Assembly (NCBI GenBank): GCA_016871255.1
Contig: VFZH01000026.1
Span: 1 to 34,650, forward strand
Origin: Acidimicrobiia bacterium
GTDB taxonomy: Bacteria > Acidobacteriota > Vicinamibacteria > Vicinamibacterales > UBA2999
Length of the DNA stretch: 34,650 nucleotides
Direction: 5' to 3'
A model generated the notes under the pieces. That model was not told the origin of the DNA, did no database searches, and was given only the letters and a program-made list of their open reading frames with translations. The position numbers and the translations under genes were made by a program. Positions 14,269-28,676 of this stretch are shown here, piece by piece. Position 1 is the stretch's first letter. The number at the start of each line of letters is the position of its first letter.

Positions 14269-14511
14269 GTGCCCGGCAGCAGGTTGTCCGTGCTCCCGGA
14301 ATGGCTCATCAAGGAGGGCGACGCCACGGTGGTGATGCTTGCAGTGGGCGACCGCGCAGAGCGCCGCGTGGTCACCACGGGCCTCACATCCGATCAGGGC
14401 CTAGAGATCACCTCTGGCCTCGTCCCAGGCGACCTCGTGATCACGCAGGGGCACATCGGCGTCGAGCACAACACGACGATCACCGCCGCGATGCGACCCC
14501 AAGGGCACTAG
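14269..14511 (+). pseudogene. RND efflux periplasmic adaptor, C-terminal remnant
   Basis: 80 codons from GTG 14269 to TAG. The sequence VMLAVGDRAERRVVTTGLTS, then GLEITSGLVPGDLVITQGH, is the membrane-proximal domain of HlyD/AcrA-type adaptors (VxxGDRAxxRxVxxG ... GLxxGDxVVxxG). The barrel-sandwich, hairpin and beta-barrel domains and the export signal are missing. No adjacent RND pump is present. The region 14136-14268 in front shows nothing I recognise. It ends seven bases before the start of the glycan operon. Confidence 0.65.
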
Positions 14512-14518
14512 CGGAATC

Positions 14519-16210
14519 GTGACAGCAGAGCGCGTCCTGTGGCCGGCGTTTCGCCCCCTGCTCCGAGGGCTGGTCGACCGGCTTCCGGCAACCTGGCAAC
14601 TGCGGGTCAGGGCAGCCAAGCGCGTCGTGCTGCGCCAGTACGACTGGGCGCGACCGATCGCGCGCCTGCGCAGACGCGACGACGCCTACATTGATGCCAC
14701 ACGGCGGCAGTCACAATCTCTGCCTGGCCGCCAGCGTGTTGCCATCTACAGCCTCCACCATTTCTCCCCAGTCGAGTATTCCCTGGCCATGGCGCTGCAG
14801 CTCCGAGGGCACGAGGTTCAGGGCATCCTGTGCGACGGACTGCTGCCGCTGTGCGAGTTGAGTCTCGGGCCAAACGTCCGTCCGCCGTGCGATGCCTGCG
14901 TCATGAACCTCTCGCGATACGAGTCGGCGTTCGGTTTCCACTACGAGCGCCTGAGCCGTTTCCTCACCGAGGACGACCGCGCGCGGGCCACGGCCCTGGT
15001 GGCCGCTGTCCCGCCGGCGGCCAGGCTGAGCATGACTGTGAACGGCGTCGCGGTCGGGCGCCTGGCGCATCGCGAGCTGCAGCGCTATTACCGCGGGTTC
15101 GTGTTCGAGCCGTCTGCCGACCCTGCGTTCCAGAAGTGGCTGGTGTCGGCCGTGCTGTTGACCTGGCTGTCAGAACGCTGGCTCGACAGCATTCGGCCCG
15201 ACATCGTCGGGACCTGCAGCGGGAGAACCCTGCCGACCGCGTGCGTGTTCGAGGTCGCCCGCCGAAAGGGCATCCGCACCGTCACCTGGGACGGTGTGGC
15301 CACGCGTCCGGACGCGCTCATGTTTAGCCACGATCGGCCGGCCACGGAAGTCCCGCTGGACGAGGCGTGGCTGCAGGTAGCGGGCGAGCCATTGTCACCA
15401 CAGCAGGATAGGGAGTTGGACGCGTTTCTCGCCGACTGGTCGCGGAGCCGGAACACGCCGTTTCCGTACAACCCACACCCGGTCGATAACGAAGCGGTGA
15501 TCCGGGCGGAACTGGGACTCCGTGACGACGCGCCGCTCGTGGCGGCGTTCTCGAATACCTCATGGGACATCTCGGTCATCGACCGTGACGCCGGTTTCGA
15601 CAGCATGTTCGACTGGCTGTTTGCGCTGGTCGGCTACGCGGCCCGCCACCCCGAAATCGACCTGGTGGTGCGGGCTCACCCGGCCGAGAAGACGGTGCCG
15701 CCCGAGCTGCAGTCGCGAACGCCCGTCGGTGCCGAGATCCGAAAGCGGTGTCACCCGCTGCCGCGCAACGTGAAGATCGTCGAGGGCGACAATCCGATCA
15801 GCTCGTACCGTCTGGCCGGGATGGCGCAGGTGAACATCGTCTACGCGTCACGCCTGGGCCTGGAGCTGGCCGTCGCGGGCATGCGGGCGTGGATCGCCGG
15901 CGTCGTCACCTACCGGGGGAAAGGCTTTACCCTCGACCTCGAGTCGCGGGAGCATATGTTCGACATGCTCGACCTGCACATGGGCGAGAATCGGCTCTCT
16001 GGCGAGGACATCGAGCGCGCGCGACGATTCGCCTACTTGTGGTTCTTCCGTTACGAGGTTCGGCTGCCGCTGCTCCACCCGGCCGACAAGCGCTTCGCGC
16101 TCGACGGCTTCCGTCAGCTTGGCCCGGGAGGCGACCCAGTGCTGGAGAACGTGTGTCACGCGGTGGTCACGGGCGTACCCTTTCTGGACCTGAATGCTCC
16201 AGTCGCTTAG
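14519..16210 (+). CDS. Capsule polysaccharide synthesis-like protein (copy 1)
   Basis: 563 residues from GTG 14519. The C-terminal half has features of the capsule-synthesis family (PF05159-like, related to Kdo transferases KpsC/KpsS): a strand ending in VVRAHPAEKT (His at about 387), a segment PRNVKIVEGDNPISSYRLAG, and SRLGLELAVAGMRAWIAGVV with YRGKGFTLD. These recur at the same spacing in the gene at 19252, so the two are paralogs. The N-terminal half is a Rossmann-like region opening with VAIYSLHHFSPVEYSLAMAL and holding PPCDACVMN. It probably transfers a sugar or phosphoglycerol-like unit to a surface glycan; substrate unknown. First gene of the plus-strand operon; it overlaps the next gene by 17 bases. 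Confidence 0.66.
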   Translation: MTAERVLWPAFRPLLRGLVDRLPATWQLRVRAAKRVVLRQYDWARPIARLRRRDDAYIDATRRQSQSLPGRQRVAIYSLHHFSPVEYSLAMALQLRGHEVQGILCDGLLPLCELSLGPNVRPPCDACVMNLSRYESAFGFHYERLSRFLTEDDRARATALVAAVPPAARLSMTVNGVAVGRLAHRELQRYYRGFVFEPSADPAFQKWLVSAVLLTWLSERWLDSIRPDIVGTCSGRTLPTACVFEVARRKGIRTVTWDGVATRPDALMFSHDRPATEVPLDEAWLQVAGEPLSPQQDRELDAFLADWSRSRNTPFPYNPHPVDNEAVIRAELGLRDDAPLVAAFSNTSWDISVIDRDAGFDSMFDWLFALVGYAARHPEIDLVVRAHPAEKTVPPELQSRTPVGAEIRKRCHPLPRNVKIVEGDNPISSYRLAGMAQVNIVYASRLGLELAVAGMRAWIAGVVTYRGKGFTLDLESREHMFDMLDLHMGENRLSGEDIERARRFAYLWFFRYEVRLPLLHPADKRFALDGFRQLGPGGDPVLENVCHAVVTGVPFLDLNAPVA

Positions 16211-17414
16211 ATGGTCGTCGACGCACCGGGCGTTTCAGCTCGCCGGCGGCGTGTGGCTGAGGGTTGGCGGCCGCACCGACGATGCCCGGCCTATCGAGCT
16301 TGGGCGCATCGAGCGCGTCCTGGTGGTGCGCCTGGACGAGATGGGCGACCTCGTCCTGACGACGCCGTTCCTGCGGGAACTGCGGCGCAACCTGCCCGAC
16401 GCCTCAATCGCGTTGCTGGTACGGAGCGAGCTGGCCAATCTGGTCGAGCGCTGTCCATACGTAGACGAGGTCCTCACCACCGAGCCGGTCGCGGAGGGAC
16501 CCTGGCGCTGGCTGCAGACGCCGGCGCGGGCAGCAGGCCTGGCCCGACGAGAACTCTGGCCGCGTAACTTCGATCTGGCCATCACGCCGCGCTGGGACGT
16601 CGACTCGGGCTACGCCGCCGCCATTGGCTTGTTGAGCGGTGCCCGCCAGCGGCTGGGCTACTCGGAACGGGTGACTGAACGGAAGACCGTCTTCAATTCC
16701 GGACTGGATCGCCTGCTCACGCATCCAGTTACCGACGATGGCCACGCCCATGAAGTGGAGAAGAATCTGGCGCTCATCGTCGCCATGGGCGGCGCCGTCC
16801 GCGAGGACCGTCTGGAGCTGTGGTGCGGGGAACCCGACGAACGGACCGCCGCCGCCCTTCTGCGCGAGCATCGCGCGGCCGGTGGCGAGTTGGTGGTCGC
16901 GGTCTCTCCTGGTGCCGGCCATCCCAAGCGCATGTGGCCCCTGGCCAAGTTCGCGAGGCTTGGCGCCTGGCTGCAGCACAGAGGCGCCAGAGTGGTGCTG
17001 GTCGGCGGCCGTGGCGAAGAACCACTCGGCCTGCAGCTTCGGCACCTGCTGGGCGATACGGTGGTCAACGCCATCGGATGCACCAGCATGCGCGAAACGG
17101 GCGCGCTGCTGAAGCGCTGCCACCTGTTCATCGGCAACGACGCGGGACCGATGCACCTGGCGGCAGCGGCCGGCCTGCCGGTCGTCGAAATCTCGTGCCA
17201 TCCCGACGGCGGTTCCATCGATCACGTGAACTCACCGATGCGCTTCGGTCCATGGGGCGTGCCCCAGGCGATCCTCCGCCCGGCCACCCCGCTGGGCACC
17301 TGCTCGGACGCCTGTGTCGCCGAACGTGCGCATTGCATCGATGGCGTGTCGGTCGAGCAGGTCACGCAGGCCGCAACCGCGTTGCTGTCGCGATTGGGCG
17401 AGGCCGCGACATGA
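16194..17414 (+). CDS. GT9 family glycosyltransferase (heptosyltransferase-like)
   Basis: 406 residues. Motifs of the ADP-heptose:LPS heptosyltransferase family: GDLVLTTPFLRELRRNLPDA in the acceptor half, AVSPGAGHPKRMWPLAKFA and FIGNDAGPMHLAAAAGLPVV in the nucleotide-sugar half. About 60 residues longer than a typical WaaF/WaaC (about 345), mostly from an N-terminal extension (1-35) and a Cys-containing tail (CSDACVAERAHCIDG) that in this family usually precedes a helix. It probably adds a heptose or another sugar to a lipid-anchored core. The ATG at 16194 lies within the end of the previous gene, and the TGA overlaps the ABC transporter start (ATGA). Confidence 0.86.
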   Translation: MLQSLRWSSTHRAFQLAGGVWLRVGGRTDDARPIELGRIERVLVVRLDEMGDLVLTTPFLRELRRNLPDASIALLVRSELANLVERCPYVDEVLTTEPVAEGPWRWLQTPARAAGLARRELWPRNFDLAITPRWDVDSGYAAAIGLLSGARQRLGYSERVTERKTVFNSGLDRLLTHPVTDDGHAHEVEKNLALIVAMGGAVREDRLELWCGEPDERTAAALLREHRAAGGELVVAVSPGAGHPKRMWPLAKFARLGAWLQHRGARVVLVGGRGEEPLGLQLRHLLGDTVVNAIGCTSMRETGALLKRCHLFIGNDAGPMHLAAAAGLPVVEISCHPDGGSIDHVNSPMRFGPWGVPQAILRPATPLGTCSDACVAERAHCIDGVSVEQVTQAATALLSRLGEAAT

Positions 17415-19252
17415 AGACGCTCCCCGCGCTGCGCCGGCTCGTCGCCGAGATCACGACCGCCGCGGCGGGCAAAGCGTCGGCGAGCGTCGCGCTGACGCTG
17501 GCACTGAGCGTGACCGAGGCGGCCAGCCTGGCGATGCTGGTCCCGCTGCTGGCGATGGTGGGAATCGGTGAATCGGCCGTGATGCCCGAAGCGGTCGACG
17601 ACTGGTTCGCCGGGGCGTTTGACTCGATGAACGTGCGGCCGACGCTTGGCAGCGCGCTGGCGTTGTTTGCCGGCGTGGCCGCACTGCGCGCGATCCTCAT
17701 GCGGTGGCAGCTCCTGGTCAACTCCAGCCTCCGCGAGGCCGTGACGGCCAGCGTGCGGGTGCGGCTGTACCGGGCATTGGCCGGGGCTGAGTGGACGTTC
17801 ATCGTTACGCGACAGCCGTCGGAGTTCGTCAACGCGCTGACGGACCAGGTCGGCCGGGTCGGATCGGCCGCGCACCAACTGGTGTCGTTGAGCGTGATGA
17901 CATCGGTCTCGCTCGTCTACCTGGGCATGGCGCTCTATCTCTCGGCGATCATGACGCTGGCAACGCTGACCTGCGCGGCGCTGCTGGCGTGGGTGCTGCG
18001 CCGAAGCATGACCGACGCCAGCACTTCCGGGAGGCTGGCGTCTGAGGCTCGGGGACGACTGCATGCCGCAGCGACCGAGCATGTGGGCAGCCTGAAGACC
18101 GTCAAGAGCTTCGGTGCCACGGATCGGCATGACGAGGTCTTTCGCCGCCTCACCTACGAATCGCGCGATGCCAATCTGCAGGTGACGGCCGGACAGACGG
18201 AGCTACAGCAGCGGCTGGAGTTCGGCTCCACGGTGCTGCTGGCGGTTGCAGTCTACGTCGCGCACGAAGTCCTGGGAATCGCGACGCCGCAATTGCTCGT
18301 CCTGCTGTTCGTGTTCGCCCGCCTGATGCCACGCCTGACGTCGATCTATGGGCAGCTGCAGGGGCTGGCGACCGTTCTTCCGGTGGTCGAGGCGACGGCG
18401 GAGCTCGAGCGCACCTACCACGCTGCCGCCGAACCCACGGCCTCGGAGTCACGGCCGCACCCCCTCGCCGACGGCATTCGCCTGCAGGGCGTGTCGTTCG
18501 CCTACCTGCGGCGAACCGAGGCCCCGGCGCTCTACGACGTGAACCTGGACATTCGGGCCGGATACACGACCGCGATCGTCGGACCCTCAGGTGCCGGCAA
18601 GACGACGCTTGCCGACCTGCTCATCGGGCTGCTGTCGCCGACGAGCGGCCGCATCCTGGTCGACGGCACGCCATTGACCGCGGATGGCCTGGCTGGCTGG
18701 AGGCGGCAGATCGGTTACGTTGCCCAGGAGACGTTCCTGTTCCACGACACGATCCGTGCGAACCTGCTGTGGGCCAGTCCCGCTGCCAGCGACGCCGCGC
18801 TGTGGGATGCCCTGCGCCTGTCCGCGGCCTCCGACTTCGTCGCCGCACTGCCGGAGGGGCTGGACACGGTCCTGGGCGAACGCGGCGTGCTCGTGTCGGG
18901 CGGCGAGCGCCAGCGACTGTCACTGGCGCGCGCCCTGCTGCGCCAACCACGCCTCCTGGTGCTCGACGAGGCGACCAGCTCGCTCGACTCCGAGAACGAA
19001 ACGCGGATTCAGCAGGCCATCGAAGGCCTGCACCAGCGGATGACCATCGTCATCATCACCCATCGTCTGTCGACGATCCGTCGGGCAGACCTGATTCACG
19101 TGATCGAGATGGGGCGTGTCGTCGAGTCTGGATCGTGGGACGCGCTGATGGCCCGTCGTGCCGGGCGCTTTCGCCAACTGTGCCTGGCACAGGGGATCGA
19201 AGACGGACCGGCAGCGCCGGCACGTCGCTCGGTGGCCTGGAGCGCCCAGTGA
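17411..19252 (+). CDS. ABC exporter, fused membrane and ATPase domains (lipid/glycan flippase type)
   Basis: 613 residues from ATG 17411. Residues 1-330 form a type IV exporter membrane domain (hydrophobic segments around 25-50, 80-105, 155-195, 270-300). The ATPase follows: Walker A GPSGAGKT (391-398), Q-loop Gln439, signature VSGGE (495-499), Walker B LLVLDE (515-520), switch His551. MsbA/PglK-type proteins flip lipid-linked sugars from the cytoplasmic to the periplasmic leaflet; the gene order (glycosyltransferases on both sides, start-stop overlaps) suggests the same here. A role in export of a lipid is an alternative. Confidence 0.9.
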   Translation: MKTLPALRRLVAEITTAAAGKASASVALTLALSVTEAASLAMLVPLLAMVGIGESAVMPEAVDDWFAGAFDSMNVRPTLGSALALFAGVAALRAILMRWQLLVNSSLREAVTASVRVRLYRALAGAEWTFIVTRQPSEFVNALTDQVGRVGSAAHQLVSLSVMTSVSLVYLGMALYLSAIMTLATLTCAALLAWVLRRSMTDASTSGRLASEARGRLHAAATEHVGSLKTVKSFGATDRHDEVFRRLTYESRDANLQVTAGQTELQQRLEFGSTVLLAVAVYVAHEVLGIATPQLLVLLFVFARLMPRLTSIYGQLQGLATVLPVVEATAELERTYHAAAEPTASESRPHPLADGIRLQGVSFAYLRRTEAPALYDVNLDIRAGYTTAIVGPSGAGKTTLADLLIGLLSPTSGRILVDGTPLTADGLAGWRRQIGYVAQETFLFHDTIRANLLWASPAASDAALWDALRLSAASDFVAALPEGLDTVLGERGVLVSGGERQRLSLARALLRQPRLLVLDEATSSLDSENETRIQQAIEGLHQRMTIVIITHRLSTIRRADLIHVIEMGRVVESGSWDALMARRAGRFRQLCLAQGIEDGPAAPARRSVAWSAQ

Positions 19253-21036
19253 TGGACAGCTCAGGGCACGGGACCGGGCGCGGCCTGCGCGACCGCGTCC
19301 GCGAGGGGCTCGACGGAATAGGCGCGCTCGGCGCGTGGCGGCGATGGCGCCGCCGCGGCATCGAGCTGCGCCGTTACGCGACCGATGCGTCGTATCGCCA
19401 GATGCAGAGGGAGCGCCGGCAGCACTTCGAGGCATTCCGCAGCCGGTACGCGCACCTCTTCCCGCCGATCGAACCACGTGGCTCGTCGGCGATGCGCGTC
19501 TTCGTGCGCAGCCGGCGGTTCCCGACCATCGAGGTCGAACTGGCGCTCATCAAGGCCCTGCAGGCGCGCGGCTCTACGACCGTTGTCGGCCTGGCTCGGG
19601 CGGATGCGCACCTGCGGCCGTACTACGAGCTGGCGGGCGTTCGCGAGTTCCTGCCGTGGGACCCGGGCGAACGCACGCACGTCTTTCGCGCCCAGGCGCG
19701 GGCCGCACTCGCCTCCGTGAGGTCGATCGATGAACTCAAGAAGCTGGACATCGATGGCGTGCTGGTTGGCGTGGCCGCACTGCTCAGCACCCACCGGCGG
19801 TTACGAACCGGAGAGCTGAATCTTGACCAGCCCGCCCACCGGGCGGCGCTGCAGTCTCGCATCGCGGCGTCGCTGGCCGCGGGGGCCTGGGCCTCGGAGA
19901 TCGTGGAGCGCGCGCGACCGGATCTGCTTCTGACCTCGGAGATCGAGTACACGCCGGAATCCGAACTCTTCGACACCTGCCTGGCGCGCGGAATCCCGGT
20001 CGTCAGATACATGGAGGCGCACCGCGACAGCACGCTGCTGTTCCGGCGCCATACCTCCGCGAACCGCGACGACCATGTCGCCTCGATCGCGCCGGAGACA
20101 TGGAGCAGGCTCACGGCAATGGACTGGTCGGAGCGCCACAGCGCTGCCGTCCTCGATGAGCTTCGCCGGTGCTACACGACCGGCGACTGGTTCAGCATCC
20201 CGGGCACGCAACGCGGCACGCGGGTGACCGCGGAGCGCGACACACGCGCCGCCCTCGAACTCGACGACACTCGCCCCGTCGGCGTCATCTTCTCGCACAT
20301 CCCGTGGGACAGCTCCTTCCGCTGGGGAACTGACCTGTTCCGAAGCTGCGAGGAGTGGCTGATCGAAACGGTCAGGACCGCGATCGACAACGACCGCGTG
20401 CAATGGCGGATCAAGGTGCATCCAGCACACGTCGGCAAGGCCCTGAAGGAGCGGTATTCGGGAGGGCCGGCCGACGTGACGGCGCTCGGTGAGGCGCTGG
20501 GCGACCTGCCACCACACGTCCGGCTGATTCCCCCCGACACGCCGGTCAGCACCTGGTCGCTGCTGGAAGTCATGGACTATTGCCTCACGGTGCGCGGCAC
20601 CATCGGCATCGAGGCAGCGCTGCTCGGCATTCCCGTGTTGACGGCCGGGACCGGACGCTACGACCGCAAGGGGTTCACCATCGATTCATCCTCGCGAGAG
20701 GAGTACCTCGACCGGCTCGCACACATCGAGACGATCCGGCCACTTCCGGAGCAGGCACGAACGCTGGCGCAGCGGTACGCCTACGGACTGTTGCTCTGTC
20801 GGCCACTGGTGCTCTCGAGCGTTCGCTTTGCGGTCTCGCGATCGGGCGACATTGGCCCCGACCGCGTCGGCACCCGCGTGATCAATCTGCTGGAAAGCTC
20901 GTTCCACCTGGACAACGCCGACGCCTGGGGCCGCGCGCCAGACCTGGTGGCGTTCGCCGACTGGGTGGCCGGAGAAACAGCGGAGATGCTCGTCGAGCCC
21001 ACCGTGCCTGCACCGGTCCAGGCGGCCGCGCGATGA
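19252..21036 (+). CDS. Capsule polysaccharide synthesis-like protein (copy 2)
   Basis: 594 residues from ATG 19252 (TGATG overlap with the ABC gene). The C-terminal half is paralogous to the gene at 14519: IKVHPAHVGK (His at about 390), PPHVRLIPPDTPVSTWSLLE, and TVRGTIGIEAALLGIPVLTA followed by GTGRYDRKGFTID, the expected phosphate/nucleotide-binding signatures of this glycosyltransferase-like family. The N-terminal part is basic, then has a region (MRVFVRSRRFPTIEVELALI) that looks like a first Rossmann domain. Probable glycosyltransferase acting on the exported glycan; donor and acceptor unknown. The next gene begins at the overlapping ATGA. Confidence 0.68.
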   Translation: MDSSGHGTGRGLRDRVREGLDGIGALGAWRRWRRRGIELRRYATDASYRQMQRERRQHFEAFRSRYAHLFPPIEPRGSSAMRVFVRSRRFPTIEVELALIKALQARGSTTVVGLARADAHLRPYYELAGVREFLPWDPGERTHVFRAQARAALASVRSIDELKKLDIDGVLVGVAALLSTHRRLRTGELNLDQPAHRAALQSRIAASLAAGAWASEIVERARPDLLLTSEIEYTPESELFDTCLARGIPVVRYMEAHRDSTLLFRRHTSANRDDHVASIAPETWSRLTAMDWSERHSAAVLDELRRCYTTGDWFSIPGTQRGTRVTAERDTRAALELDDTRPVGVIFSHIPWDSSFRWGTDLFRSCEEWLIETVRTAIDNDRVQWRIKVHPAHVGKALKERYSGGPADVTALGEALGDLPPHVRLIPPDTPVSTWSLLEVMDYCLTVRGTIGIEAALLGIPVLTAGTGRYDRKGFTIDSSSREEYLDRLAHIETIRPLPEQARTLAQRYAYGLLLCRPLVLSSVRFAVSRSGDIGPDRVGTRVINLLESSFHLDNADAWGRAPDLVAFADWVAGETAEMLVEPTVPAPVQAAAR

Positions 21037-21521
21037 GCACGTCGACGACGACTCAGGCACTGCACATCGTCTGCGAGCGCGACGTCGGGTTGTTCAACCT
21101 GTTTCTCGGCATCATCGCGCACATCCATTGGGCGAGGAGCGAGGGTCGCATCCCGGTCGCCTATCTCGGCCAGTACTGCTGCTACTGGACGCCGCTCGGC
21201 TACCGCGGCAGCGATTCGGTGTGGGAGTACTACTTCGAGCCGCTCGTTCCCGAGTATCCAGCCGCCGCATTCCCCCTCATGTCCGCCAATGGATTGCCGA
21301 CCATCCTCACGTGAAGGACGTGAAGGGCTGCTTCGTCGATGATCGACTACTTGCTGCTGTGCCGGTGACACCACCTCGTGTACAACCTCTCGGCGATTCC
21401 CCGAGCCCTGATGCTGAGCGTGCCCGGCATGCCCGAAACCAATCTCGCCGCGCTGGCGCCTCTCGACCTCGCGGTCGCGGCTCTGCGTCGCCAGGTGCAG
21501 CGGTGGCGACGCTCTCACTGA
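21033..21521 (+). pseudogene. Decayed fucosyltransferase-like gene
   Basis: ATG 21033 opens LHIVCERDVGLFNLFLGIIA ... GQYCCYWTPLGYRGSDSVWE. At about 21272 one base is missing and the homologous text goes on in another frame (IPPHVRQWIADHPHVKDVKG, CFVDD). At about 21337 (GATGAT) it jumps to what looks like the protein's C-terminal part in yet another frame: MIDYLLLCR, a TGA where Cys is likely, then HHLVYNLSAIPRALMLSVPG and MPETNLAALAPLDL, ending at TGA 21519-21521. The DYLLLCRCxHLxxNxSA text resembles the donor-site region of NodZ/FUT8-like enzymes. The middle of the protein is deleted. As it stands it encodes only 93 residues. The ATGA overlap shows it was once part of the operon. Confidence 0.62.
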
Positions 21522-23530
21522 TCCTGTGCTCGCGCAACGACCAGTACATGGGCAACTCCCGCTGGCGGCTGCAGACGGCGCTCGACTACGCGGCCAGAAG
21601 AGCGCACGAACTGGGCAGGGCCAACGACGTGGAGATTCTCGTCGCCGACTGGGGCAGCGAGACACCGCTGCGCGACGTCGTCCGACTGGGGCCGGAGGCG
21701 GGCAGGATGGTCCGGTTTCTGCACATTCCGCCGGCGGCGGCGCGACGGCTCCAGCGAGACAGCCCGTTCCCGGAGGTGCTCGCGCTGAATGCGGCGGCCA
21801 GGCGGGCCGGCGGAGACTACATCGGACGCATCGATCAGGACACGCTTGTCGGGGGGCGCTTCCTGCGCATGTTCTTCGATCTGGTCGAGGGCCGGCGCCA
21901 CCTCGACGTGCCTGTCGCCACCGCGCTGCTCTTCGCCAACCAGAGGATGGTGCCCTACCGGTTTACCTCACGCTGTCCAGATCTTCCGTTGGTCGAGCGG
22001 TGCATCCGTAGCTTCGGGCCGCGCCTGCCGGTTGAACTCTCGCCGCGCCGCCCCTTCCACGCTCACGGGGTCGGCATCTGGCTCGCCCATCGCGACCTCT
22101 GGCACGAATGCGGGGGCTACGACGAGCGCATGATCTACATGAACGACATGGAGATCAACATGATCGAGCGGCTGCGCCGGCGGCACGTGCTGGTCGATCT
22201 GGGGCGCATCGTCGACTACGACTTCTTCCATCTGGAGCACTACTCGCCGCTCCAGCCACGCCGGTCCTCCACACACCGCAGAGTGAATCCTTCGTCGCCC
22301 TTCGATCGGACAGACGTCATCAACCCCACCGGGGCCGACTGGGGATTGGCTCGGCTACCGCTTGACGCACCCTCCGGCGTCGATGCCGAGGCACTCACCT
22401 CGCCACCGCCATTCGACGGGACACGGTATCGGTGGCTGGTCTGTGTGGCCGCGGGGCGCATCGCTGGTGACAGGTCGTGGCTCGCGCTCCGCCGATTGAC
22501 CGGCAGGGTCAGCGGCCAGGCCAAGGAGGTGTTCTTCCGTGTCTTCCGCTCGGACGTCGTAGCCGAATGCCGGGCGACCATCGCCACACGCGGCCTGGTT
22601 CCGGCGCTCAACGGGACCAGACACCTCCGTCGTCGGGACAGGCTTGTCGTCGCCACCGGGCTGTACGAGGTGTTCACGAGACACCCGGAGTGCACCGAAC
22701 TCCATCGCGGCGCCGTTCGCGGCGCGCGCTATGTCCTCTCCCAGTCGGCGCTGGCCAACCGCGACACCAGACGCTATCTCCTTGCGTGGGGCACCGAGCT
22801 GCTGCGACAGCATGCCGACATGCGCGACCTGTTCGAGAACACGGATATCGTGTTCTCTCCCAGCGAGCAGGCGGCGTTGCAGAACTCGACGCTGTTTGAA
22901 ACCACCTGGAGGCTGCTCGTCCCCATGCTGCTGTCGCGCGAGCCGGCAGACGGGGATCGACAGCACATCTATTGCTTCGGCTGCGCGGGTGGGGCGACCG
23001 TCGCCGCGCTCAAGTTCGCGTTCGACAGGCAAGGCATGCCGCTGCCGTTCCTGCACCTGTTCGACTCGTTCGCCGGCCTTCCCGCCGAACAACCCGGCAT
23101 CGGCACCAACAGCCATTGGCGTGAGGGGTCGTTCGCGTTCGGCCCGGAGCGTCTGCGCGAGAAGCTCTGTAAGGTGGGCGTCACAAACGATGGATTCGCC
23201 ATCCACGAGGGTTTCTTCAGCGACTCGCTGACTCCGGAACTCGCCGCCTCTGGCGACCTCCGGCCGGCTCTCTATATCGACATCGACTGCGATCTGTACA
23301 TCAGCACGTACCAGGCGCTGGACTTCATGTTCGCCCACGGTCTGGCCACCACGGGCACCTATGTCGGCTACGACGACTGGGGCGACACCAGGGAGTGGAC
23401 GGAAGGCGAGAGCCGGGCGCACAAGGAGATCGCCGACAAGTACGGCGTACGGTTCACGGAGTGCGTCTCCTGGGGACGCGCGCCGGTGGTGCGCAAGCTG
23501 TTTCGTGTCATGGACAGGGGTTCGCGGTGA
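21503..23530 (+). CDS. Fusion: GT2-type glycosyltransferase + TylF-like methyltransferase
   Basis: 675 residues from GTG 21503. Residues 3-290 are a GT-A domain: LSLILCSRNDQYMGNSRWRL, EILVADWGS, LNAAARRAGGDYIGRIDQDT with the metal-binding DQD (111-113), and GGYDERMIYMNDMEINMIER, the acceptor-side motif shared with GT2/GT27 enzymes. Residues about 340-485 are a helical linker I do not recognise. Residues 488-660 resemble the macrocin-O-methyltransferase (TylF/MycF) family: FGCAGGATVAALKFA, LFDSFAGLP (521-526), YIDIDCDLYISTYQALDFMF and YDDW (623-626). The enzyme would add a sugar and O-methylate it or a partner sugar. The start overlaps the pseudogene before it; the TGA overlaps the next GTG. 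Confidence 0.78.
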   Translation: MATLSLILCSRNDQYMGNSRWRLQTALDYAARRAHELGRANDVEILVADWGSETPLRDVVRLGPEAGRMVRFLHIPPAAARRLQRDSPFPEVLALNAAARRAGGDYIGRIDQDTLVGGRFLRMFFDLVEGRRHLDVPVATALLFANQRMVPYRFTSRCPDLPLVERCIRSFGPRLPVELSPRRPFHAHGVGIWLAHRDLWHECGGYDERMIYMNDMEINMIERLRRRHVLVDLGRIVDYDFFHLEHYSPLQPRRSSTHRRVNPSSPFDRTDVINPTGADWGLARLPLDAPSGVDAEALTSPPPFDGTRYRWLVCVAAGRIAGDRSWLALRRLTGRVSGQAKEVFFRVFRSDVVAECRATIATRGLVPALNGTRHLRRRDRLVVATGLYEVFTRHPECTELHRGAVRGARYVLSQSALANRDTRRYLLAWGTELLRQHADMRDLFENTDIVFSPSEQAALQNSTLFETTWRLLVPMLLSREPADGDRQHIYCFGCAGGATVAALKFAFDRQGMPLPFLHLFDSFAGLPAEQPGIGTNSHWREGSFAFGPERLREKLCKVGVTNDGFAIHEGFFSDSLTPELAASGDLRPALYIDIDCDLYISTYQALDFMFAHGLATTGTYVGYDDWGDTREWTEGESRAHKEIADKYGVRFTECVSWGRAPVVRKLFRVMDRGSR

Positions 23531-24663
23531 CCCTGTCACTCATCCTGTGCTCGCGCAACGACCAGTACATGGGCGATTCGCGCTGGCGGCTGGCGACGGC
23601 GCTGAACTACGTCGGCGAGCACATCAGGCGCCTGGGCAGAGAGTCCGACGTGGAGATCGTCGTTGCAGACTGGGGGAGCGACCCGCCGCTGAGCGACACC
23701 CTCGAGATCGATCCCGCCGCCGCGCGTGTGACCCGCTTCGTCCTTGTCCCGCCCATACTGGCGGCGACCCTCCAACTGGACAGTCCCTTCCCCGAAGTCA
23801 TCGCGTTGAATGCGGCCGCGCGGCGCGCGCGCGGGGACTACATCGGACGCATCGACCAGGACACGCTGGTCGGCGCACGTTTCCTCGCGACGTTCTTCGA
23901 CCTCTGTGAAGGGAAGCAACGCCTCGATGTGCCGCTCGACTCAGCCCTGCTTTTCTCCGGCCACCGACACGTCCCCTACCGGCTTGCCGTGCGCTGCCCG
24001 CCGCTGTGGGCCGTCACCAGGTTCGTCGAGCGCCGAGGCCGCGCGCTGCCGTTGGAGGGCAGCGACTCGGCCAGTCCCTTCTACCTGAAGGCGGTCGGCA
24101 TCTGGCTGCTGCATCGCCGCCTCTGGCATGAGTGTGGCGGCTACGACGAGCGGATGATCTACATGAACGGCATGGAAGCCAACATGATCCATCGGCTGAT
24201 GACGACGTACCCCATCGTCGACCTCGGACGACTCGCCGGCCACGACTTCTATCATCTCGAGCACTACCATCCCTGGGCGACGCGCAGGTCGTCGACGCAC
24301 CGGAAGGTGAACCCGCATCTCCCGTTCTGGACGCCCGACCGGATGAATCCAAACGGCGACGCCTGGGGGCTCGCAGCGCACGATCTCGCGTTCGCACCCT
24401 CCGGCAACGTGCAGGACTCCGCGGCTCCGCCAAGCACAGTGCCTGGGACCCGGGCTGGGCAGTTCCTGCTGCTGACGGCTCTCGTCTCGGCCCTGGGCGT
24501 CGTCGACCGTATCGCGATCGCGACCACCGTCTGGAGCACGCGAATCAGGAAAGCCTGGCTGGCCGTCCGTGACCGGCCTGTGGCCACCTGGCCCCGCGTC
24601 CTCTGTGACCTGTGGGCCGCACGGCGAGCCGCGCGACAGGCTCGATCGCCTGGCGCGTGCTAG
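23527..24663 (+). CDS. GT2-type glycosyltransferase, tandem paralog of the previous gene
   Basis: 378 residues from GTG 23527 (GTGA overlap). It matches the first ~290 residues of the preceding protein almost motif for motif: LSLILCSRNDQYMGDSRWRL, EIVVADWGSDPPL, RRARGDYIGRIDQDTLVGAR, GGYDERMIYMNGMEANMIHR, HLEHYHPWATRRSSTHRKVN. It lacks the methyltransferase; instead it has an ~80-residue tail with a hydrophobic stretch (FLLLTALVSALGVV) that may touch the membrane. It probably adds the same or a related sugar to the growing glycan. Last gene of the plus-strand operon. Tandem duplication, followed by gain or loss of the methyltransferase half, is the simplest history. Confidence 0.8.
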   Translation: MTLSLILCSRNDQYMGDSRWRLATALNYVGEHIRRLGRESDVEIVVADWGSDPPLSDTLEIDPAAARVTRFVLVPPILAATLQLDSPFPEVIALNAAARRARGDYIGRIDQDTLVGARFLATFFDLCEGKQRLDVPLDSALLFSGHRHVPYRLAVRCPPLWAVTRFVERRGRALPLEGSDSASPFYLKAVGIWLLHRRLWHECGGYDERMIYMNGMEANMIHRLMTTYPIVDLGRLAGHDFYHLEHYHPWATRRSSTHRKVNPHLPFWTPDRMNPNGDAWGLAAHDLAFAPSGNVQDSAAPPSTVPGTRAGQFLLLTALVSALGVVDRIAIATTVWSTRIRKAWLAVRDRPVATWPRVLCDLWAARRAARQARSPGAC

Positions 24664-24699: not shown

Positions 24700-24730
24700 T
24701 CCGGTCGAACAGGTGCGCCGTCAGACCGGA
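24700..24730. terminator. Possible bidirectional hairpin between convergent operons
   Basis: TCCGGTC (24700-24706) can pair with GACCGGA (24724-24730), loop of 17 bases, at the meeting point of the two glycan operons. There is no U-tract, and part of the stem lies in the last codons of the cytidylyltransferase gene. Weak call. Confidence 0.25.
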
Positions 24731-25491
24731 TGCCGCGCGCCGGCTGGACGGGCCGGCGGCCATTCGCCGCGACCAAGGGCACCTAGCGCCTGTTCCAGCC
24801 GCGGCAGACTCTCGGGGTAATCCAGCTCCACCACCGGTTCGTCGACGATAAACGGCAACACGCGTTCGCCGGCCATCCGGCCGAGCCCGAGCACCACGTG
24901 CGGTCGCACGATGTCAACGTAACCGTTCTGCCAGTACGCCTCGGGCAACGTCTGCCGGGGCGCACAGCATGGCTCCACCATGCCAGGCACCTGCAGCAGC
25001 GGCTGCAGTTCGCCGTCGACCATGCGCCACATCTTGTAGGGCGTCTGCTCCGCCAGGCTGACCGAGCGCAGCGAGTGGGCGTCCGGGCGGCCAAGCATGA
25101 TCTCGATTGCACGGTCGATGGGCTCGACGCGGCGCACCGGCCCGGTCGGTCGCAGGTGCACGACGAGCTCGCAGGCATAGCCCTGGCGAGCGTCCAACTC
25201 CTGCAGCACGTGGCGGAACACCTCCAGATCCGTGGACTCGTCCAGCGCGAACGCTCCCGGCCGCATGAACGGCACCTCCGCCCCGCACGCCCGCGCCACG
25301 TCCGCGATCTCCTCATCGTCTGTAGACACGATGGTGCGCGTGATCAGTCGAGACGCGAGCGCCTGTTCGATGGAATAGGCGATGAGCGGCTTGCCCGCGA
25401 CGACGACGAGATTCTTGCGCGGGATGCTCTTCGAACCGCCGCGTGCCGGGATGAGCGCGAGCACCTCGGCACGCCGGTCACACGCGCTCAT
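24721..25491 (-). CDS. Acylneuraminate cytidylyltransferase-like protein (NeuA type)
   Basis: 256 residues. The N-terminus LALIPARGGSKSIPRKNLVV is the CTP-binding signature of CMP-sialic acid synthetases (also CMP-legionaminate, CMP-pseudaminate and CMP-Kdo enzymes), followed by GKPLIAYSIEQAL, IVSTDDEEIADVA and LRPTGPVRR (LRPTSP in most members). It should activate a nonulosonic acid as its CMP derivative. The ATG at 25491 overlaps the stop of the oxidoreductase gene (ATGA). It is the last gene of the minus-strand operon, downstream of a NeuB-type synthase. Which sugar is activated cannot be told. Confidence 0.87.
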   Translation of the reverse strand: MSACDRRAEVLALIPARGGSKSIPRKNLVVVAGKPLIAYSIEQALASRLITRTIVSTDDEEIADVARACGAEVPFMRPGAFALDESTDLEVFRHVLQELDARQGYACELVVHLRPTGPVRRVEPIDRAIEIMLGRPDAHSLRSVSLAEQTPYKMWRMVDGELQPLLQVPGMVEPCCAPRQTLPEAYWQNGYVDIVRPHVVLGLGRMAGERVLPFIVDEPVVELDYPESLPRLEQALGALGRGEWPPARPAGARHPV

Positions 25492-26521
25492 GCCAGCTCC
25501 ACGACGCGCCCGGTCGCCATGGACTCGAGCGCGGCCAATGCCATGCGCACGCTCTGAGCGCCCTCGCGCACCGGCGCGAGCGGTGACGCCTCGCCGCGGA
25601 TGCAGGCGAAGAAGTGACGCAGCTCATCGAGGAACATGTCGTTGCGGTCGAATCCGGCCCACGAGTACGTCTCGGGTGCCCCCCTGCCAGTGACGACGTC
25701 GACGGTGAGCGCGTTGAAGTCGGCGACGATCGAGCCCCGGTCGCCAACGACCTTGCACGTGCGAGCGGGGCGCCGTTGCAGGTAGTCCTGCTGGAGGTGT
25801 ACGGGAATCGGCCTGCCGTCAACCACGCACTCCATCATCACACTGGCCACGTCCTCCACGTCGATCCCGAGGCTCCCCGAGTTGCCCCCAAGCGCGAACA
25901 CTCGCCGCGGAGCCCGAACAGCCAATAGATGTAGTCGAGCTCGTGGATCTGCGCGAGCACGACGCCGCCACCCAGGTCGCGACGCGCGGCGTACATCTGG
26001 CGATGGTCTTCATAGGGGTGCCACCCGGGCAGATACTCACCAATCTCCGCCTGGACGGACACCACGGAGCCGATGCGAGACTGACCGAGCAGATCCCGCA
26101 GTTGCCTCAGGCAGGGGTGAAAGCGCATTTGAAAGCCGACCAACGTGACGAGTCCGCGCGCGTCGACCAGTTCGGCAAGCGCGTCAACGCCCTCCCACGA
26201 CGCGGCCAGCGGCTTCTCGATGAAGAGGTGACAACCGGCGCCCGCGGCGGCGAGCGCCACCGGCACGTGCAGGCTGCTCGGGTTGCAGACGAACACCGCC
26301 GTCGGCCGGCGCGCCAGTGCCTCGTCCAGATCGTCGAACGAGCGGACGCCGTAGTGCGCGTCCAGTTGCGCATCGGCAACGACCTCGAACCGCGAGGTCA
26401 ATACCGGCGTCTGGCGTCGTACCCGGTAGGCGTCGATCTCCACCTCCGCGCCGAACAGGTGGCGCAGGTTGCGCACGTGGCGCTGGCCGATTCCTCCCAG
26501 CCCGGCGACGAGCACGTTCAT
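25488..26521 (-). pseudogene. Gfo/Idh/MocA family oxidoreductase, frameshifted
   Basis: From ATG 26521 the frame gives VLVAGLGGIGQRHVRNL (Rossmann GxGxxG-type loop), VFVCNPSSLHVPVALAAAGA, the catalytic-region motif CHLFIEKPLA (EKP), and ARRDLGGGVVLAQIHELDYI. At about 25910-25920 one base appears to be missing. The family text continues in another frame, RRVFALGGNSGSLGIDVEDV ... GDRGSIVADF ... RNDMFLDELRHFFACIRG, to a TGA that overlaps the next start codon. Together the halves make a full-length (~344-residue) NAD(P)-dependent sugar oxidoreductase. It could be a recent mutation or a base-calling error; every other part is well conserved. It probably oxidises, reduces or epimerises the precursor of the NeuB product. 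Confidence 0.85.
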
Positions 26522-27357
26522 CGGGCGACACCGCCGTGAGGGTGCAGGTGGTGTCGCACAAGGCGGGAGTACCCGCGCGAGAGGCCCAGGTAGTCAGCGC
26601 CCGTGGCCGCTTGCACTACGAGCGGGCCACCGTAGCCGACGGCTGCCAGCTCGGAGAAGAAGGCGGCGAAGTCAACGTCGCCCTGTCCCAGCGGCACGCT
26701 GGCGCCACCTCGCGGCCGGTCCTTGACGTGTACGCCGCGCAACCAGGGACCGAGCGCGCGCAGGTCGGCCACAGGGTCGTAGCCTTTCGCGGCTGCGTTG
26801 CCGACGTCGTAGTAGATGCCCAGGGCCGGGGACCCGGCGTCCTCGACAAGCGCCCGGTACTCGGACGAGGGCAACTCGGTTTCCAGGGCGATCGTGACGG
26901 CCGCGTCGTGGGCGATGCCCAGCGGTCGCCGAAGCGCCTTGAGCAGGTCGATGGCCTCCTGCGCCGCGCGGATCTCGCAGCCCTCGAGCACCGGTACCAG
27001 AATGGTGCGGATGCCGAGGCTTCTGGCATGCCCGATGAGCGTCTCGAGCACATCGACGCTTCTGGTCCGCTCGTGGTCTGGAACGCGGAAGAACGGGTGT
27101 GTCATGAAGTAGTCGGCGCACACCGAACGCACGGAGACGCCGGAGTCGGCCACCCGCCGGCGAATCCGATCGCGACCCGGCGCGCTCCAGAGTGGATTGT
27201 CGACGGCGCGGGGCTCCTCGAACAGCCACTCGATCGTATCGAAGCCACACTCGCGCGCCCGCGTGAACTCGTCCTCCCACGACGACCACGGGAACGCCTG
27301 CACCCGGCCTGCGACCGGCGGCGACAGGCGCCCCTGCATGATGCCGATTTCGTTCAT
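26518..27357 (-). CDS. TIM-barrel sugar isomerase/epimerase (xylose-isomerase-like)
   Basis: 279 residues from ATG 27357 (a GTG at 27408 would overlap the synthase gene). The start EIGIMQGRLSPP and EFTRARECGFDTIEWLFE are typical of the AP-endonuclease-2-like family of divalent-metal sugar isomerases and epimerases. Glu in TIALETELP, Asp in YYDVGNAAAKGYDP and His in LRGVHVKDRPRGG are the likely metal ligands. The family interconverts keto and aldo sugars or epimerises keto-sugars; several members sit in nonulosonic-acid-like and capsule clusters without known function. It lies between the NeuB-type synthase and the oxidoreductase, with ATGA overlap to the latter, so a role in making the synthase's substrate is likely. 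Confidence 0.82.
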   Translation of the reverse strand: MNEIGIMQGRLSPPVAGRVQAFPWSSWEDEFTRARECGFDTIEWLFEEPRAVDNPLWSAPGRDRIRRRVADSGVSVRSVCADYFMTHPFFRVPDHERTRSVDVLETLIGHARSLGIRTILVPVLEGCEIRAAQEAIDLLKALRRPLGIAHDAAVTIALETELPSSEYRALVEDAGSPALGIYYDVGNAAAKGYDPVADLRALGPWLRGVHVKDRPRGGASVPLGQGDVDFAAFFSELAAVGYGGPLVVQAATGADYLGLSRGYSRLVRHHLHPHGGVAR

Positions 27358-27379
27358 ACGGCGGAGGGCTCGATCCGGG

Positions 27380-28294
27380 TCAACGTCCGGTGCGTCGCAG
27401 CTTGTCACGGGCGGGAATCTCGCTCTCGTAGACCCGCTTGACGCCGTCCCCCAGCGCCGCCTCGATCGCGCGAATATCCTTCACCAGGCGCGCCATGCCC
27501 ACGGGCTCGACCGACGCGGCCTGGTCGCTGCCCCACTGCGCGCGATCGAGCGTCAGGTGCCGCTCGATGACGCAGGCACCGAGCGACACCGCGGCCAGCG
27601 TCGTGGCCAGGCCCACCTCGTGTCCCGAGTAGCCGACGGGCACGCGATAGCGATCGAGCAACCGCGGAATCACCTTGAGGTTCAGCTCCTCGGGCTGGGA
27701 CGGGTACGAACCCGTGCAGTGCAGCACGACCAGCCGTTCCCGGCCGATACGATCGACCGCACGGTCAATCTCCTCCATCGTGCTCATCCCGGTCGACAGC
27801 AATACCGGGCGCCCCCGCTCACGATGGCGGAGAAGCAGCGCGTCATCGGTGAGGCACGCCGACGCGATCTTGAAGCACGGCACGTCGAACGAAGCGATGA
27901 GATCCACCGACTGAGGGTCCCAGCACGAGGCGAACCACGGGATTCCGACCGCGCGGCAGTGGCGGTCGATCTCGACGTAGGCCTCGCGGCTCAGTTCCAA
28001 CCCCCGCTTCAGATCGCCGTTGGTGTCGCCGAAGGCGCTCGTGCGCGGTCGCGCCAGTTCCTCGGGCGAATACACGGCCTCGATCGTGCGCTTCTGAAAC
28101 TTCACCCCGTCGCAACCGGACGCGAGCGCCGCATCGACCAGACGCTTGGCCTGATCGACGCTCCCGTTGTGGTTGATCCCGATCTCGGCGACTACGAAGA
28201 CTGGGTGTCCCGGCCCGACCAGCCGGCTACCGATGCGCACCGGCTCGACGCCTGCGCTGGCGTCGCCCCCGTCGTGGGTACTGGGTTGGTTCAC
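27380..28294 (-). CDS. NeuB-type nonulosonic acid synthase without SAF domain
   Basis: 304 residues from GTG 28294, which overlaps the upstream stop (GTGA). TIM-barrel motifs of the NeuB family: VVAEIGINHNGSVDQAKRLV, CDGVKFQKRTI, FASCWDPQSVDL, FKIASACLTD, LLSTGMSTMEEIDRAV, LHCTGSYPSQPEELNLKVI, GYSGHEVGLATTLAAVSLGA and IERHLTLDR. The family condenses phosphoenolpyruvate with an N-acyl-hexosamine-type aldose to give a nine-carbon sialic acid, legionaminic or pseudaminic acid. Standard NeuB proteins (about 345 residues) end in an antifreeze-like SAF domain; here the protein stops just before it (DKLRRTGR). Short members without SAF are known. The aldose acceptor is unknown. Confidence 0.87.
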   Translation of the reverse strand: MNQPSTHDGGDASAGVEPVRIGSRLVGPGHPVFVVAEIGINHNGSVDQAKRLVDAALASGCDGVKFQKRTIEAVYSPEELARPRTSAFGDTNGDLKRGLELSREAYVEIDRHCRAVGIPWFASCWDPQSVDLIASFDVPCFKIASACLTDDALLLRHRERGRPVLLSTGMSTMEEIDRAVDRIGRERLVVLHCTGSYPSQPEELNLKVIPRLLDRYRVPVGYSGHEVGLATTLAAVSLGACVIERHLTLDRAQWGSDQAASVEPVGMARLVKDIRAIEAALGDGVKRVYESEIPARDKLRRTGR

Positions 28295-28676
28295 CGCTCC
28301 GCCACTCGCATGTCGAGACTTGCCGAGACCTGCGCGCGGTCCTTCACGCGACGGTACCAGTCGATCGTCTGGTGCAAGCCGTCCGCGAACATCACCTGCG
28401 TCTCCTCCCAGACGACGAACGGATCCTGACCGATGAACGCACGCGCGATCATCGCCATGATGGCGTGATTCTCGTGACAACGCTCACCGTACACGGTGAA
28501 GTACCGGCAACTGACCGACTTCATGCCAGCCTCGGCGGCGTAGGCGCGCAAGGTCATCTCGGCCATGAGCTTCGCCCTGCCGACGGCCGCGCCACGCTGA
28601 TCAACGCATCGACCAGGTGCGATCCGATGACGGAGGCCCCGCCGGTCACGAGCGTCCTGCAACCGCTCCAGTTCAT
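28291..28676 (-). pseudogene. NAD-dependent sugar epimerase, internally deleted and frameshifted
   Basis: ATG 28676 opens RTLVTGGASVIGSHLVDALI (Rossmann GGxxxIGxH). One base later missing, the frame changes at about 28610 to RGAAV, and then jumps directly to GRAKLMAEMTLRAYAAEAGM, SVSCRYFTVYGERCHENHAI (near the K of the YxxxK motif; the Tyr is lost). After DPFVVW a second jump leads to the C-terminal text EETQVMFADGLHQTIDWYRR. Some 130 and 80 residues respectively are missing compared with the ~310-residue family. It ends with DMRVAER at 28291 and overlaps the synthase start. No active enzyme can be made; it may formerly have supplied a UDP-sugar. Confidence 0.8.

Follow-up and report, generated by a model that had tools for sequence, protein, structure and literature searches.

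A predicted GT2-like glycosyltransferase fused to a TylF/MycF-type O-methyltransferase beside nonulosonic-acid genes in an acidobacterial contig

Proteins that carry a methyl-capping enzyme and a glycosyltransferase on one polypeptide are already known from glycan assembly. In WsaE, of the S-layer glycan of Geobacillus stearothermophilus, a methyl-capping domain is joined to glycosyltransferase modules; the methyltransferase is N-terminal, there are two rhamnosyltransferase domains, and the gene belongs to a Wzm/Wzt cluster (PMC2943079). ORF6 of Klebsiella pneumoniae O7 is a methyltransferase-kinase-GT2 terminator with a long coiled-coil ruler, and an extended ruler of this kind is carried by the characterised terminators (PMC11231755). 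Within a 34,650-nucleotide stretch of contig VFZH01000026.1 (the window), we describe a protein, P1, that shares with WsaE the pairing of a sugar O-methyltransferase with glycosyltransferase modules, and with O7 ORF6 the union of a methyltransferase and a GT2 module in a single protein of glycan assembly. P1 differs from WsaE in that a single glycosyltransferase domain comes first and a TylF-type methyltransferase last, beside an MsbA/PglK-like exporter, and from O7 ORF6 in that neither a kinase nor a coiled-coil ruler was found in it. No description of a TylF-GT2 fusion was found in the open literature. An earlier sequence-only reading had called the combination undescribed; as far as we searched this holds for the exact pairing, but the principle is known from WsaE (PMC2943079) and O7 ORF6 (PMC11231755), and we regard P1 as a new combination of known parts, capping fusions of glycosyltransferase and methyltransferase having been described before. 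The features of the locus, in window coordinates, are as follows.

16194-17414, + strand: GT9 (heptosyltransferase-like), by profile match
17411-19252, + strand: MsbA/PglK-like ABC exporter with fused transmembrane and ATPase parts (PF00664+PF00005), start approximate
19192-21036, + strand: KpsC/Capsule_synth-like protein (weak PF05159), start approximate
21033-21519, + strand: decayed NodZ-like fucosyltransferase gene, directly upstream of P1
21503-23530, + strand: P1, GTG start at 21503, 675 aa, glycosyltransferase domain followed by O-methyltransferase
21503-22430, + strand: P1 glycosyltransferase domain, GT-A/GT2-like, residues 1-309, with DQD at 111-113 and E217, fold taken from the P2 model
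22431-22960, + strand: P1 linker, about residues 310-486
22961-23527, + strand: P1 TylF/MycF-type O-methyltransferase domain, about residues 487-675, with G493/G497, C491 in place of Glu, D521, D595/D597/Y599/S601 and D624/D625
23527-24663, + strand: P2, unfused GT2-like paralogue, GTG start, 378 aa, with a hydrophobic (313-331) and basic helical tail
24721-25491, - strand: CMP-nonulosonate cytidylyltransferase (CTP_transf_3, PseF-like), by profile match
25488-26521, - strand: Gfo/Idh/MocA oxidoreductase, in two overlapping frames
26518-27408, - strand: TIM-barrel isomerase/epimerase-like protein (AP_endonuc_2), by profile match
27380-28480, - strand: NeuB-type nonulosonate synthase, by profile match

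The sequence-only reading had placed two tandem genes within 21503-24663, had given them about 290 shared residues and had assigned a methyltransferase to the first alone, and on all three points we agree with it: P1 and P2 are 61% identical over 308 residues (BLASTP, E = 1e-119), and P2 is unfused. The start of P2 and the stop of P1 overlap by four bases (GTGA). At the DNA level the two genes are 71% identical across 799 nt, with similarity stopping near codon 262, and in this comparison no repeat in common with P2 was found at the junction of glycosyltransferase and methyltransferase. Third-position GC content varies little (0.81-0.88) over the glycosyltransferase, linker and methyltransferase parts of P1, so the whole frame looks coding. 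The longest exact DNA match between the two genes is a 33-nt repeat at 21521 and 23542, at the starts of both glycosyltransferase genes, where it is a possible recombination site.

Neither P1 nor P2 reaches the curated Pfam cutoff for GT2, the best single member of their family giving E values of 0.0017 for PF00535 and 1.9e-5 for PF10111 (below the cutoffs where these are shown), and NCBIfam assigned no name to either; the GT2 call of the sequence-only reading is therefore kept here as GT2-like only, resting on fold and motifs. The AlphaFold model of P2 has a GT-A fold (pLDDT 84) whose best PDB matches are the chondroitin polymerase K4CP, a Leptospira glycosyltransferase, TarS and SpsA, while PDB searches from single sequences (the C-terminal half of P1; P2) returned nothing useful. 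The family motifs are RND.YMG, DWGS and DQD. P1 has the DXD motif as RIDQDT at 109-114 and keeps other family-conserved residues, and DQD is kept in all members except the Omnitrophota copy L007 (7956-9155), in which CSD replaces it and a methyltransferase gene follows 63 bases downstream. In the unfused members the C-terminus is a long helical tail; that of P2 is basic (12 K/R vs 3 D/E) and has a hydrophobic stretch with a peak mean hydropathy of 2.05 at 313-331. Such tails may sit at the membrane. P1 is without the hydrophobic and basic tail of the other glycosyltransferases and has the linker in its place.

The two domains of P1 were aligned and modelled separately, a joint alignment having misaligned both. 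The assignment of the C-terminal domain to the TylF type, as proposed in the sequence-only reading, was right: PF05711 matches residues 496-630 with E = 2.3e-8 and a score of 34 bits, the cutoff being 23, and the AlphaFold model of residues 310-675 shows a confident methyltransferase fold (core pLDDT mostly 82-94) whose best PDB matches by Foldseek are MycF (4x7v, E 9e-9), NovP, CalS11 and SpnH. With a profile made from this domain together with relatives, the matches to SpnH, NovP and MycF range from about 1e-74 to 1e-66. With TylF, MycF, NovP and SpnH the domain has in common the fold, the metal site and the DSFxGLP motif; it differs from them in being fused to a glycosyltransferase, in matching only profile positions 103-233 of 264, and in the loss of the motif-I Glu. 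In the alignment, P1 and its relatives share G493, G497, D521, D595, D597, Y599, S601, D624 and D625, so that the ribose-binding Asp, the DSFxGLP motif and the acidic residues of the metal site, whose metal role we take from NovP and MycF, are intact. The Glu of motif I (E-x-G-x-x-x-G) is Cys (C491) in P1 and Glu in 17/17 compared relatives, and since this residue is replaced, SAM binding may be weakened. On the question raised with the original proposal, whether SAM-binding residues are missing, the motif-I acidic residue is indeed lost, but the other SAM and metal residues are kept. As judged from sequence and model, the domain may be an active though divergent TylF-type enzyme, with a specific doubt attached to SAM binding.

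The linker, about 120-180 residues, had been described as helical and of unknown nature. Helices were modelled there, short, with low confidence and at most 21 residues long, and no coiled coil rises above shuffled sequences, the heptad score being reached by 167 of 500 shuffles. One relative aligns to P1 from residue 434 onward, so the last part of the linker (about 434-490) probably belongs to the N-terminal region of the methyltransferase.

In the neighbourhood, the KpsC-like protein at 19192-21036 is homologous to the domain that is fused to the first glycosyltransferase in Acidobacteria relatives, and a second, distant homologue of this protein (about 25% identity), with no Pfam match of its own, lies at 14441-16210 (+). 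The NodZ-like remnant has a recognisable N-terminus (21051-21275) and C-terminus (21327-21443), but about 190 codons are missing and in-frame stops are present, by comparison with an intact homologue at L084:742-1749 (-). The Gfo/Idh/MocA gene is split in the window and contiguous in the relatives L004 and L005, so the split is a frameshift or an assembly error. The NeuB-type synthase covers only the first 278 of 329 TIGR03569 positions, which suggests from sequence that it is without the C-terminal SAF-like part. The locus has no recognisable dTDP-sugar pathway genes, and no Wzm/Wzt pair was found there, the ABC protein of the locus being of the PF00664+PF00005 type; elsewhere in the genome, Wzt-type proteins (Wzt_C, with carbohydrate-binding C-termini) were found just on contigs C11 and C16. 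Nor did the genome support a Wzx/Wzy reading, a sub-threshold Wzx-like match being all that it showed.

The glycosyltransferase family is rare. A scan of genome contigs by peptide patterns, which reaches close relatives only, gave five loci; 4/162 genomes of the order carry the family (two further genomes gave methyltransferase-only matches), as do 2/396 in a phylum sample, the phylum-level searches being samples of genomes. No relatives of the glycosyltransferases were found in plasmids, phages or viral contigs. In Methylomirabilis (L003/L004) and Acidobacteria (L005, L006), as in the window, genes for NeuB, a CMP-transferase and Gfo adjoin the glycosyltransferases. None of the three glycosyltransferases of Methylomirabilis is fused, nor are the Omnitrophota copies, which occur singly; stand-alone class I methyltransferase genes are found close to the glycosyltransferase in Methylomirabilis (L003 3395-4183) and Omnitrophota (L007 9219-9992). 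Of the glycosyltransferases in the Acidobacteria relatives, the first carries a KpsC-like domain as a fusion and the second stands alone. A tree groups P1, P2, L003b, L005b and L006b (82/98) apart from the KpsC-fused copies; since P1 and P2 are the sole members in their genome and both fall in this group, the window genome is without the KpsC-fused subtype. A lineage-specific duplication was considered as a possible origin of P1 and P2; P1 is nearer to a Methylomirabilis copy (68%) than to P2 (61%), but the forks of the tree are poorly supported.

The KpsC-fused proteins (L005 1134-3983, L006 4711-7974 and L009) have both domains in a single frame and resemble P1 in belonging to the same glycosyltransferase family, in having an enzyme placed after it, and in their nonulosonic-acid neighbourhood where the contig extends. 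They differ from P1 in that the added domain is a Capsule_synth/KpsC-like glycosyltransferase and in the subtype of the first domain; it is possible that they are two-step nonulosonate or Kdo-type transferases. TylF itself is common (74/392 genomes), and other acidobacterial fusions likewise carry it C-terminally in a larger protein, but their N-terminal domains, which are TPR (L046, L050), weakly GT-B-like and below cutoff (L041, L042, L044) or another methyltransferase (L043), are unrelated to the GT2-like family of P1. No second fusion of this glycosyltransferase to a methyltransferase was found in the close-relative contig scan, the 162 genomes of the order or the phylum samples. The sequence-only reading had taken confinement to a single assembly to speak against its proposal, and as far as we searched the fusion does occur in one genome only; it had also asked whether fused and unfused genes co-occur in relatives, and the glycosyltransferases seen there were KpsC-fused or unfused, none of them methyltransferase-fused.

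Considering these findings, we read P1 as a bifunctional cytoplasmic enzyme that would both add a sugar to one surface glycan, made by a nonulosonic-acid locus, and O-methylate one of its hydroxyls, and we give this a probability of about one half. The GT-A domain would add one sugar to a growing lipid-linked glycan, the divalent-metal-dependent methyltransferase would then act on a hydroxyl of that glycan, most likely on or beside the sugar just added, and P2, the unfused sister, would add another residue. We infer here the activity of both domains, the identity of donor and acceptor, the order of the steps and methylation of the glycan rather than of a precursor. The bifunctional reading is drawn from the single open coding frame, the GT-A fold with DQD and the TylF profile and fold match; from the conservation of D521, D595, D597, Y599, D624 and D625; from the adjoining NeuB, CMP-transferase and Gfo genes, found also in Acidobacteria and Methylomirabilis; from the separate methyltransferase genes near the glycosyltransferase in Methylomirabilis and Omnitrophota; and from WsaE and O7 ORF6 as precedents for such fusions acting on one glycan. 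Counting against it are C491, the occurrence in one genome, the low confidence of the linker model and the missing hydrophobic tail of P1.

It is unlikely, if still the least improbable of the alternatives, that the methyltransferase domain has lost or is losing its catalytic function and has only a structural or interaction role. The lost motif-I Glu, the decayed gene directly upstream together with the frameshifted Gfo nearby, and the failure to find another fused copy would fit such decay, but P1 keeps all metal-site residues, the ribose-binding Asp and DSFxGLP in an open frame of coding composition, and the fold is modelled with confidence. If the domain is active, it could be a chain terminator that halts elongation by methylating the non-reducing end, like WbdD, WsaE and O7 ORF6, as the sequence-only reading had proposed. 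The likeness of the fusion to WsaE and O7 ORF6 favours this, and Wzt proteins with carbohydrate-binding C-termini are encoded on other contigs of the genome; yet P1 has no coiled-coil ruler and no kinase domain, the locus has no Wzm/Wzt and its exporter is MsbA/PglK-like, and relatives have the module without any fused methyltransferase, all of which leaves termination weakly supported and a rather unlikely function.

Somewhat less probable again is methylation of a nucleotide-activated or free sugar precursor, with the fusion only channelling the methylated donor to the glycosyltransferase. One of the best fold matches, CalS11, is a TDP-rhamnose 3'-O-methyltransferase, but the closest fold and profile matches, MycF and SpnH, act on attached sugars (as inferred from their names), and the locus shows no recognisable dTDP-sugar pathway. 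An assembly artefact seems a very improbable source of the fusion: the assembly is a draft of 243 contigs and the 33-nt repeat is common to both glycosyltransferase starts, but P2 and the junction have no repeat in common, DNA similarity stops well before the junction, and frame and composition continue across it with no seam.

Beyond the bifunctional reading of P1, it can be speculated, as a long shot, that the C-terminal slot of this glycosyltransferase family is an exchangeable position for finishing enzymes, since relatives carry a putative CMP-NulO/Kdo-type transferase there and the window genome an O-methyltransferase; acidic-sugar or methyl ends would then be chosen by domain swapping, with no ruler involved. 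P1 draws attention to a GT2-like family that has been little described, goes with nonulosonic-acid loci in Acidobacteriota and Methylomirabilota, and has more than one kind of finishing enzyme as its fusion partner. Should its two domains both be functional, P1 would be a compact test case for the coupling of sugar addition and methylation in uncultured bacteria.
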